Virus record (IMG/VR): IMGVR_UViG_3300043438_000518
Span: 40,261 to 104,260 of that record
Source of the DNA: a virus
DNA: 64,000 bases
Strand: one strand, 5' to 3'
Part shown: positions 39,802-52,200 of the stretch, piece after piece
How positions within the stretch are numbered: the stretch's first letter is position 1
Layout: every line of letters begins with the position of its first letter
Notes under the pieces: model-generated
What the model saw: the letters and a program-made list of their open reading frames with translations, nothing else
Databases searched by the model: none
What the model was told of the DNA's origin: nothing
Position numbers and translations under genes: made by a program

Positions 39802-40668
39802 TTAAAGTTGAATAATTTTTTTCTTTGTTCCGTCATCATATAGGTAGATCATAAGTTCATCTTTGCGGATATATTGAACAGGTCTACCCATCATATCATA
39901 GATTCCAATGAGTTTAGGCTCTGGTTTTTTGACTTCAGATGTGGTAAGTGTTACACATGGGTCAATAGTAAATCTTATCAAAATGTTAGTATCATCGCCA
40001 TGACAGTAATGAGACCATGTTAACACCAATAAGTATCTACCCGGTTTTCTGAATTTATAATTTATTTGTCTACCAGCATCTAAAGTGTCTCGCTTTTCGT
40101 AAACAATATCTTTGGAACTCCAGCTCAAACCATTATCAAATATATTAGGGTCATTAGACCATTGGCTGTCTGTAAATCTGTCTAAATTACCACTATGCAA
40201 TAACATGGTCCTGTACACCCAACAAAAACTAGGAGGTTCAAGTGTACCCTTGGTCATTTCACCAGCTATGCTATCAATACAACTAGAGTCGTAAGTTGAT
40301 AACATTTTGTAGTTGAGAACACAGTGATTAAAGTAATGGTAATCAACATAGTCGTAAATGATTGTATCACAACCAGTACAAGTGTTTGTTAATTTTAGAT
40401 TGAATTGATATTTCCCTTTATGTGGAAGGTAAATTCTTGGAAAAAGTCTTTGACTCTTGTTTAAATTAGTCAGAACTTTGTGCGTTGACAGGTCAATAAT
40501 GTCATAGTCGTACTTGACACAAGTATCCTTGAACGCATCTCCGGTTATTCTCCAAAGAAAGTAGTTTCCACTACTCATTTGTTCAATGTTAACAGAAGCC
40601 CATGTACATTTTGCATTCGCTGTTGCTAAGGAGACCAGAAGCATTAACAGCATTATTAGTTTTTTCAT
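39802..40668 (-). CDS. secreted protein with T9SS-like C-terminal tail
   Basis: 288 residues. A signal peptide (about 1-19, MKKLIMLLMLLVSLATANA) is followed by a Cys-rich beta domain with repeated C-x-G-C and NTCTGCDTIIYDY-type strands that resemble PKD/gliding-type modules. The last 35 residues (LIGIYDMMGRPVQ, then LMIYLYDDGTKKK) match the C-terminal motif of Bacteroidota type IX secretion cargo: YDxxGRxV, then a glycine-containing strand and a basic ending. The gene looks host-derived and is probably a moron that is exported or surface-attached during infection (inference). Its role is unknown. Confidence 0.68.
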   Translation of the reverse strand: MKKLIMLLMLLVSLATANAKCTWASVNIEQMSSGNYFLWRITGDAFKDTCVKYDYDIIDLSTHKVLTNLNKSQRLFPRIYLPHKGKYQFNLKLTNTCTGCDTIIYDYVDYHYFNHCVLNYKMLSTYDSSCIDSIAGEMTKGTLEPPSFCWVYRTMLLHSGNLDRFTDSQWSNDPNIFDNGLSWSSKDIVYEKRDTLDAGRQINYKFRKPGRYLLVLTWSHYCHGDDTNILIRFTIDPCVTLTTSEVKKPEPKLIGIYDMMGRPVQYIRKDELMIYLYDDGTKKKIIQL

Positions 40669-46620: not shown

Positions 46621-46923
46621 TGGTTAGGGCTAATATTGGTTAGCCTTTGCAGTTAGGATAAACGCTAATCTATCCTAACTAAAAAGTCCTGGAAGCAGAT
46701 CTTACGGTATGCAACCAGGAACATTTAAAAAACAACTTCTTGCATGCTCACCATGCTTTTAGATTTTACTGGACATAGTTTACTGTCCACCTGTTGACGT
46801 GCACATCAGAGCAGGGTCCATCACAGTTCACTTTGGGTCATGTAACTCATTTGGGTAATTACTCCCAAGAGCCAAAGTATCTTTCAACGGTGCTAATCCG
46901 CCCTCTGTAAGAAGTTGTTTTTT
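46621..46923 (-). ncRNA. structured non-coding RNA downstream of tRNA-Leu
   Basis: No gene is supported in 46617-46922. A perfect 15-bp stem, AAAAAACAACTTCTT (46727-46741) with its complement 46909-46923, closes a 197-base domain. Inside are 46742-46746/46752-46756, 46770-46775/46784-46789, CCTG 46790-46793 with CAGG 46812-46815, and a stacked pair 46830-46836/46872-46878 enclosing 46851-46855/46864-46868. Past the domain a 10-bp hairpin lies at 46651-46660/46671-46680 and GGCTAA/TTAGCC nearby. The closing stem starts at the tRNA CCA, so tRNA end processing would release it. The strand follows from the tRNA and terminator. No known RNA class recognised. Confidence 0.6.
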
Positions 46924-50596: not shown

Positions 50597-51007
50597 TTAT
50601 CCGCAATAAGGATCTTCTTCATCCATCCAATTATCAGTGTTGAACATCATATTAAATTGTTCTGCTTGCTCTATAAGAGCTTCAAGGTCAAAAATACTGA
50701 AGCCACTAATTTGCTTAGCATAGTCATTAACCTTAATGTAGATAGCATTAAGTCTTTCAAGTTCCAGGAGATTATCCTTAACCATTTGTTCTTTTGTCCT
50801 ACTCATAGTTTGGTCTATTACATAACAGGCAAGATCAGCAAGAATTTTTGCTTTATCTTCGGTCAGTTCAAGTTCAGTCATAAAGAAACTAATAGCTTGA
50901 TAATACCCAAGAGTATTAACAATTTGCTTAGCAGTGTCTTTAAGTTCATCATTCATACCATCTAACATGATAGTATGTTCATCGGTTAGTTTAAATGTAT
51001 TTTCCAT
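50597..51007 (-). CDS. acidic helical hypothetical protein
   Basis: 136 residues, pI low, helical throughout (NDELKDTAKQIVNTLGYYQA, ELTEDKAKILADLACYVID) and ends NWMDEEDPYCG. Leader is a variant of ACAGATATG. Similar acidic helical proteins can mimic DNA or bind polymerase, but that is only a possibility. Confidence 0.58.
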   Translation of the reverse strand: MENTFKLTDEHTIMLDGMNDELKDTAKQIVNTLGYYQAISFFMTELELTEDKAKILADLACYVIDQTMSRTKEQMVKDNLLELERLNAIYIKVNDYAKQISGFSIFDLEALIEQAEQFNMMFNTDNWMDEEDPYCG

Positions 51008-51063
51008 TTCTATATCTGTTTTAGTTTAGTTTATACTAATTGGTATTATACCATAAGGTATAA

Positions 51064-51194
51064 TTTACTTCCATCTGCACTCAGTTGTAACAAGGCTACA
51101 TGTTACCTTGCTTAGGGATTAATGTTTTCATTACAACTGCTCACCCTTTGGAAGTGAGTTGTGGTGCATTAAAGTAAAGGGGTTGTTACACCCC
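51064..51194 (-). ncRNA. three-way-junction RNA, copy A
   Basis: Minus-strand structure from 51194 downward: a leading hairpin (51179-51183/51190-51194), outer stem TTTACTT/AAGTAAA (51172-51178/51064-51070), stem TGCAC/GTGCA (51164-51168/51076-51080), hairpin CTCAC/GTGAG (51154-51158/51140-51144) with loop TTCCAAAGG, and stem AGTTGTAAT/GTTACAACT (51130-51138/51083-51091), whose end pairs as U-G only on the minus strand. An inner CAAGG/CCTTG hairpin caps it. It fills the space between the genes at 50597 and 51186. A TTATACC/GGTATAA hairpin follows at 51046-51063. Copy B is at 51788-51986. Confidence 0.72.
51179..51194 (-). terminator. hairpin at gene end and RNA start
   Basis: GGGGT/ACCCC with a 6-base loop and TTTACTTT after it on the minus strand. 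It can end the gene at 51186-51356, and it also occupies the place of the leading hairpin of the three-way-junction RNA. Confidence 0.5.
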
Positions 51195-51356
51195 ATATAG
51201 AGAATTATGAATCTTATATAGAACACCATTATCTTCAAAGACCATCCAATACTGATAATTAACATCAAGTCTTGTTTGTCCTTTAAATTCAGGATTCTTT
51301 AAGTTCATGTAATCAGACGAACTGATTTCCTTTGCAATGTTTAATAGATTTTCCAT
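51186..51356 (-). CDS. small hypothetical protein
   Basis: 56 residues from the ATG at 51356 (MENLLNIAKEIS); the longer frame to 51476 starts in low-complexity AT-rich sequence and lacks a good start region. Ends YQYWMVFEDNGVLYKIHNSL, an alpha-beta-beta pattern. It stands alone between two non-coding stretches, with 120 bases of leader upstream in which I see no clear element. Confidence 0.5.
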   Translation of the reverse strand: MENLLNIAKEISSSDYMNLKNPEFKGQTRLDVNYQYWMVFEDNGVLYKIHNSLYGV

Positions 51357-51499
51357 ATGTATATTGTTTGTTTTAATTTCAAAATAAAAAAGCAGTTTAA
51401 ACACTTGCTTAGGTGTAGATACAATAGCACTAATATTAATAATACAAAAATTATTAACATTACCCCTTAGATTCAATAAGACAACCGATTTGACTTACG

Positions 51500-51770
51500 T
51501 CCAGTAGTCTCTCCCCTAATAGGCCGTTACAAAGTAACATTTGTCTGCTATTACAGTAACACAGTAAGTGTCACTTTGTAGAGCTGTATCTGTAGCTCAA
51601 CAGAAACCTGGTTCTTAAATTATAATCCCTATGAACCAGGAAGTTCAGGACATTATCTACAAGAGGCAGATACTCAACAGTTATTTCGTGCTGTAACACA
51701 AGTTATACTGATAAACTTAAGCTGGTCTTTTATGTAAAATGGCTTACTTGCTTAAGGTAAGTTAAAAACT
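51500..51770 (-). ncRNA. region of stacked inverted repeats
   Basis: No frame is supported. Perfect stems: TACAAAGT/ACTTTGTA (51528-51535/51573-51580), which competes with GTTAC/GTAAC in 51526-51538; GAGCT/AGCTC (51581-51585/51594-51598); CCTGGTTC/GAACCAGG (51607-51614/51633-51640); ACAG/CTGT around 51677-51693; CTTAAGC/GCTTAAG (51716-51722/51750-51756). The stretch lies downstream of copy B on the minus strand and may be part of one long RNA. The strand is inferred from copy B only. Confidence 0.45.
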
Positions 51771-51787
51771 GCCTGCTTACGCTCCGG

Positions 51788-51986
51788 CTACTCCACTCTG
51801 CATTCAATTGTAATAAAAAGCCAATAACACAAAAATGTTATCCGTTTGGGGCAACTAATTGTTCACCTATAAATAGGTTTAGTGTTTATCCATGCTTTAT
51901 ATCTCGTTACTACAATTGCCGGTCCTTGTGAAACCGGTTATGATGCATTAAAGTAAGACAGTTTCACTTCGCATTATATCTGTCTT
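51788..51986 (-). ncRNA. three-way-junction RNA, copy B
   Basis: Same plan as copy A with compensatory changes: leading hairpin AAGACAG/CTGTCTT (51955-51961/51980-51986), outer stem TTACTT/GAGTAG (51951-51956/51788-51793) with two U-G pairs, stem TGCAT/ATGCA (51943-51947/51799-51803), hairpin CCGGT/ACCGG (51933-51937/51919-51923) with loop TTCACAAGG, and AATTGTAGT/ATTACAATT (51909-51917/51806-51814) with one G-U pair. The apical part is longer and holds ACCTAT/ATAGGT and ATAACA/TGTTAT hairpins. The wobbles fit only the minus strand. Confidence 0.72.
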
Positions 51987-52200
51987 GAACCCCGCTTCTA
52001 GGGTTTTATTAACCAAGCAAAACTTTCGCTTAGCATTAGATAACGTCTCTGATACAAGAGACGAATAAGAATAACAGATAACAACTTATAAGAGATTATA
52101 TAAGAGGTTATCTGTTAGTAGGGTTAGTTAAGATTTAACTTTTTAGTCATATCACAACCTAAAAGGCATTAAAATCCACTATTTTGGACAGTTAGAAAGA
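51987..52200. other. inverted-repeat array upstream of copy B
   Basis: No gene. AACCC/GGGTT (51988-51992/52001-52005), CGTCTC/GAGACG (52044-52049/52058-52063), and AACAGATAAC/GTTATCTGTT (52073-52082/52107-52116) with CTTATA/TATAAG nested inside, then AGTTAA-GAT-TTAACT (52126-52140) followed by T-rich sequence on the plus strand. These could be terminators, further RNA stems or cruciforms near an origin. Confidence 0.45.

Follow-up and report, generated by a model that had tools for sequence, protein, structure and literature searches.

Twister ribozymes are built from stems P1, P2, and P4, with P0, P3, and P5 as optional additions, and contain two pseudoknots, T1 between L4 and L1 and T2 between L4 and L2 (PMC5408937, PMC6154101). 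They cleave at a U-A step and carry an invariant active-site guanine (PMC5408937, PMC6154101), with acid and base roles assigned to a guanine and to the first A 3′ of the cleavage site (PMC9901934). In T2, a conserved GC in L2 pairs with a GC bulged from L4. A functional twister printed in PMC12236469 reads AA-CACT-GCC..GGTCCCAAGCCCGG..AGTG-GAGGG. Eckert et al. (PMC10085705) looked for the missing non-circular permutations of the class without finding them. The biochemistry of twister is well studied; for its natural function, a family situated between the genes of crAss-like phages would offer a defined biological setting. Our searches of the open literature turned up no previous description of twister ribozymes from crAss-like phages.

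Here, we describe such a setting from two RNAs in a 64-kb window (the whole stretch of DNA analyzed, equal to positions 40261–104260 of a 104,260-base IMG/VR record). The window comes from a crAss-like bacteriophage whose terminase matches Crassvirales, Cellulophaga phages phi4:1 and phi17:2, and Flavobacterium and Bacteroides phages. From sequence analysis, we conclude that each copy is very probably a twister-like self-cleaving ribozyme, predicted to cleave, from a divergent type-P1 subtype that always carries P5, usually a long one.

A structured RNA occurs twice in the window

Both copies are non-coding DNA flanked by minus-strand genes, and all of their features lie on the minus strand. 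The positions proposed by the sequence-only reading held, with the copy 2 core ending at 51787, and unconstrained folding of the minus strand reproduced the full architecture that it had described (a leading hairpin, an outer stem, a short stem, a small hairpin, and a long stem) at −51.2 and −51.5 kcal/mol.

Copy 1 has a complete core, P1-L1-P2-P4-P5, at 51064–51178 and scored 92.8 bits (E = 1.4e-25) with R1, a covariance model of 19 relatives, copy 1 among them and copy 2 excluded. A terminator-like hairpin, GGGGTGTAACAACCCC, stands immediately 5′ of P1 (51179–51194). The 5′ strand of P1, TTTACTT (51172–51178), pairs with 51064–51070 in the free fold and in R1, and its placement agrees with the register test below. 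It is followed by U^AA (51169–51171), aligned to the twister L1 “UAA” through relatives with a short P5, with cleavage predicted between U 51171 and A 51170. The 5′ strand of P2, TGCAC (51164–51168), has GTGCA (51076–51080) as its partner, and P2 covaries between C-G and T-A at two positions. P4 (51154–51158/51140–51144) is closed by loop L4, TTCCAAAGG (51145–51153), in which CCA (51149–51151) forms one strand of T1. P5 spans 51082–51139, with arms at 51131–51139 and 51082–51090 that were detected as an inverted repeat and that covary. The 3′ strand of L1 (51071–51075) comprises the predicted catalytic G (51075), A 51074, and the T1 strand TGG (51071–51073).

Copy 2 likewise has a complete core (51787–51957) and scored 69.3 bits (E = 2e-18) with R1, of which it was not a part. 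Its leading hairpin (51955–51986) pairs AAGACAG with CTGTCTT around an 18-nt loop, ATATAATGCGAAGTGAAA. On the same basis as in copy 1, U^AA falls at 51948–51950, with cleavage predicted between U 51950 and A 51949. P2 pairs TGCAT (51943–51947) with ATGCA (51799–51803), and P4 (51933–51937/51919–51923) carries the L4 loop TTCACAAGG (51924–51932), with CAC at 51928–51930 as one T1 strand. P5 (51805–51918, outer arms 51910–51918 and 51805–51813) is given by both the free fold and R1, and the 3′ strand of L1 (51794–51798) supplies the predicted catalytic G (51798), A 51797, and the T1 strand GTG (51794–51796).

The pair had been described as a duplicated RNA. Two copies are indeed present, but simple local duplication does not account for them, since the copy 1 type (loop CCA with TGCAC/GTGCA) and the copy 2 type (loop CAC with TGCAT/ATGCA) both recur in other phages. 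Searching the 64 kb with R1 returned nothing beyond these two copies, and a pattern search of the entire 104-kb record found no third.

The hairpin that leads copy 2 also recurs as a separate motif, noted in the window at 51955–51986 on the minus strand and at L128, L142, L164, L194, L217, L241, and L350–L364. Its ATATAATGCGAAGTGAAA loop, which was fixed by the search, occurs in 30 viral contigs, some having an adjoining ribozyme and some not, and its stem has seven or more pairs that covary freely in 20 of 20 distinct examples, often preceded by GGGG. Elsewhere in the window, a non-coding 19-nt inverted repeat (89% complementary) lies upstream of copy 2 at 52072–52117, and a freshwater-1 RNA (Rfam RF02979, 84.4 bits) lies on the minus strand at 46764–46825, ~100 bases downstream of a same-strand tRNA-Leu.

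Relatives and covariation

By scanning IMG/VR with TTTAATGCA..TTC..AAGG and stricter patterns, we found at least ~150 related sites on contigs of diverse crAss-like phages, with the CCC type alone accounting for at least about 148 sites in the fetched loci before deduplication. Detailed parsing covered 118 distinct sites. When R1 was run on 30 phage records, each contained one to three copies. On the RNA strand, the consensus is P1, U^AA, TGCAY, CA.., P4 with loop TTCCCAAGG, P5 (CAGTTGTAA...TTACAACTG), A, RTGCA, GA, GGG, and the returning strand of P1. Because the search patterns prescribed many core positions, part of the invariance at those positions is a selection effect; T1, P1, the sequence of P5, and the fifth P2 pair were free of this constraint. 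Sites in related phages are also not independent events.

The compensatory changes first seen between the two copies extend to these relatives. All helices covary, and in a 19-sequence alignment, 20 of 29 pairs showed double-sided change, amounting to 83 cells compared with 29 in shuffled alignments and 11–16 when partners were slid. The reported wobble asymmetry was also upheld, with 98 G-U pairs and 4 A-C pairs, indicating that the minus-strand RNA is the molecule under selection. Covariation across many relatives strongly supports the earlier proposal of a functional structured RNA made from the minus strand.

The element appears to be essentially viral, as only two real matches were obtained from 84,980 bacterial and archaeal species genomes. 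One lies within a Chitinophagaceae bin, on a contig of 45 kb, and the other at the end of a 4.6-kb contig; both contigs look viral or misbinned, and we therefore rejected an origin in host genomes. Among 30 ribozyme-bearing records tested, 23 carried the portal family of the window phage, and most of the others were shorter fragments. Similarity between the DNA polymerases of these phages ranged from 99% down to undetectable, indicating that the ribozyme spans diverse phages. Seven named phages that are crAss-like or related to them (cr50_1, cr55_1, cr273_1, phi4:1, phi17:2, FpV4, and Lbo-JY46) yielded no credible copy, and blastn searches of named phages with the region and two relatives as queries gave nothing useful. 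We note that the portal gene in the records of L051, L177, and L068 (G005, G029, and G008) contains a single in-frame stop codon, TAG in two of them and TAA in the third, perhaps reflecting stop-codon reassignment or a frame break.

A pseudoknot joins L4 to L1

The sequence-only reading overlooked a pseudoknot between the three central bases of its “TTC..AAGG” loop and the triplet that follows GTGCAGA or ATGCAGA. These T1 triplets are complementary at all 118 distinct sites (CCC/GGG at 93, CCA/TGG at 16, and CAC/GTG at 9), and complementarity had played no part in choosing the sites. The register of P1 is similarly sharp. Its best pairing begins immediately 3′ of the T1 strand, which is twister's own position, with a mean run of 3.6 bp compared with 1.8 (maximum 2.25) for shuffled strands and 0.7–1.9 at other offsets. 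In P2, the third pair is C-G or T-A (13 of 14 TGTA sites), and the fifth alternates in the same way; the Rfam alignment assigns P2 only 4 bp, yet this fifth pair covaries. The three essential twister stems, P1, P2, and P4, are all present in twister's nesting, and all covary.

Conservation and decay of the predicted active site

The sequence U^AA or N^AA was found at 114 of the 118 sites. At the remaining four, AA was absent from its expected place, and three of these have U-AA two bases upstream. When all other core positions were kept constant, no real relative had A+1 replaced, and eight contigs, all real, had U-1, a position at which twister tolerates change, replaced by C or A. In six contigs, AA was displaced by TC; among those read, L247, L252, and L254 keep an intact U-AA just before it and L255 does not. 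The predicted catalytic G was present at 118 of 118 core-intact sites, a figure partly fixed by the search.

Twenty-two contigs had a base other than G after TATTACAACTGAGTGCA. Where their 5′ half was readable, most had L4 replaced by a plain P4 hairpin loop, and their outer helix was continuous. One site (L277:1294) kept L4 and has AA-GAG where GA-GGG is expected. Nine relatives (L260, L265, L267, L269, L271, L274, L276, L277, and L278) look decayed, retaining the P2/P5 three-way junction with a plain P4 loop and an unbroken outer helix and having lost both the G and T1. Relatives lacking the G thus also lack T1, which suggests that the two decay together while the P2-P4-P5 junction persists. 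The G-lost and core-intact sets came from different search patterns, so we set aside a Fisher test of linked loss. These natural relatives without the catalytic G and pseudoknot are built-in controls for the predicted activity.

The persistence of the junction without the L1/L4 core could mean that the scaffold has a value of its own, as it would if the RNA were a non-catalytic protein-binding site, riboswitch-like element, or mRNA stabilizer whose pseudoknot resembles twister by convergence. The low Rfam scores and the lack of a conserved canonical T2 are compatible with such a role. However, the P1 register, the UAA/GAGGG internal loop, the CCCAAG loop, and T1 agree with twister simultaneously, A+1 is replaced in no real relative, and the G and T1 are lost together. 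Given these coincidences, we consider a non-catalytic role improbable and favor a twister-like ribozyme.

Rfam comparisons

The RNA had been thought to match no named class and perhaps to be new. It does go unrecognized by Rfam, in that searches at gathering and permissive thresholds with the window and five loci returned nothing relevant. Once T1 is added, though, its architecture and active-site nucleotides are those of twister. Two natural relatives with a short P5 bear this out. For L207, twister-P1 ranked first of 4,227 Rfam families (20.2 bits, E = 0.027), and for L069 it ranked second (18.8 bits, E = 0.11), with both scores far under the twister-P1 gathering cut-off of 67.2 bits. Both alignments were full length and on the correct strand, and placed UAA and GAGGG on the UAA and GAGGG of the model. 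Neither the window copies nor two other short relatives (L210 and L242) gave a twister-P1 match in Rfam. Genome-wide searches with RF03160 matched none of these sites and are usable neither for nor against twister.

We infer that Rfam misses the other members owing to their long P5 and altered L4/T2. The L2 loop begins with C/T-C-A (YCA) and L4 ends with AAGG, leaving at most one C-G pair of T2; these bases were fixed by the search patterns, which puts the altered T2 outside the reach of the covariation test. The different T2, together with the 5-bp P2, the obligatory P5, and the 9-nt L4, is what might be expected if the ribozyme had its own fold and had reached a twister-like active site independently. 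This is very improbable, given that twister-P1 aligns full length and in register to two members and that all of the shared elements occur in the same order. Instead, the RNA appears to be a new subtype within a known class rather than a member of an unrelated one. The result is a large family that is invisible to Rfam and present at one to three copies per genome, and phage ribozymes are probably undercounted, as current models overlook members with a long P5 and a changed T2.

Gene context and proposed action

Most relatives lie between co-directional genes. Using a crude gene caller, we found the downstream gene to be co-directional at 89 of the 99 sites that have one, and the upstream gene at 88 of 105. 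Many sites directly follow a hairpin: the 43 bases upstream of the predicted cut fold unusually well, with z below −2 in 28% of cases compared with 7% further upstream and 4% downstream. In the window, a 56-aa ORF (51186–51356, minus strand) ends just upstream of copy 1, and a 136-aa ORF (50597–51007, minus strand) starts 57 nt downstream of it. Homologues of both adjoin ribozymes elsewhere, those of the former upstream (L141 and L110) and those of the latter downstream (L162, L173, L212, and L230). In the L162 phage, whose ParB is 99% identical, the leading hairpin of copy 2 is fused to a ribozyme of the copy 1 type with a different downstream gene (compare window 51000–52000), an arrangement that would fit recombination at the conserved cores.

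Such swapping of flanks and small ORFs around the ribozyme between close relatives, along with the long inverted repeats, would also be seen if this were a DNA-level element (a cruciform, or a recombination or replication signal) with RNA pairing as a by-product. We find this scarcely credible, as the excess of G-U over A-C pairs reveals selection on the RNA of one strand, the pseudoknot would have no role in a DNA cruciform, and the sites are mostly co-directional with neighboring genes.

A ribozyme of the twister kind would act in cis within the minus-strand transcript. P1, P2, P4, and P5 would form, and L4 would dock back to pair with the 3′ side of L1 through the 3 bp of T1, putting the U-A step of U^AA beside the G of “GCAGA”. 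If the chemistry follows that of solved twisters, this G and the A after the cut may then provide acid-base catalysis, leaving a 2′,3′-cyclic phosphate on the upstream RNA and a 5′-OH on the downstream RNA. The location of most relatives between co-directional genes, often right after a hairpin, suggests that the substrate is polycistronic mRNA. Phage transcripts would thus be segmented into an upstream part with a hairpin-ended 3′ terminus and a downstream part with a structured 5′-OH leader, which could tune mRNA stability or expression for individual genes. We regard this intercistronic processing role as about an even call.

A bolder and rather unlikely possibility is that paired co-directional copies of different type are processing cassettes that release the RNA between them with 5′-OH and 2′,3′-cyclic phosphate ends, and that copies which no longer cleave remain as non-catalytic junctions with a second use as RNA stabilizers. 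Were this so, environmental crAss-like phages would generally rely on ribozyme-based mRNA segmentation to control gene expression. In the window, the RNA between the two predicted cuts is 779 nt long and contains the 56-aa ORF. No RtcB or RNA_ligase family was found in 19 phage records, leaving circularization by a phage enzyme unsupported.

Comparison with known systems

The HDV-like theta ribozymes of gut phages (PMC10879173) are also self-cleaving, intergenic in phages, and mostly sense to their neighbors. However, their HDV-like fold is unrelated, and they cleave at tRNA 3′ ends, whereas the present RNA generally has no adjacent tRNA. ARAGORN placed no tRNA 3′ end at a ribozyme site in the loci scanned, and we rejected a theta-like role in tRNA processing, as tRNAs occur only occasionally nearby. 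Separately, tRNA-like sequences directly follow ribozymes at L145 (after 3898) and L003 (just 3′), where ARAGORN makes no call.

Closer comparisons lie among the twisters and their namesakes. Twister-sister has a somewhat similar P4 loop, but it lacks the T1 pseudoknot and cuts the opposite loop strand (PMC5408937). T1 is the best-supported feature of the present RNA, and its covariation sets the RNA apart from twister-sister. Type-P5 twisters belong to the same class and also use stem P5; here, by contrast, P1 carries the free ends and a loop caps P5, which is not how the type-P5 permutation is arranged. Nor is it one of the missing permutations sought by Eckert et al. (PMC10085705), being a divergent type P1.

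With type-P1 twisters (RF03160; Roth et al. 2014; PMC5408937, PMC6154101), the RNA shares the order of P1, P2, and P4, an internal loop made of UAA, GA, and the T1 strand, the loop CCCAAG, the T1 pseudoknot between L4 and L1, and a P1 that directly follows the T1 strand. The twister of PMC12236469 and our relatives have AA, CCCAAG, and GAGGG in common, in the same order. It differs in several respects. P5 is present in every member read here compared with 1% of annotated twisters (PMC6154101), and it stands where twister has the L2 3′ strand “UAAA”. There is no P3, L4 is TTCCCAAGG, and the canonical form of T2 is absent. Finally, the covarying P2 has 5 bp compared with 4 bp in solved twisters, and according to a review, extra pairs may disturb the active site.
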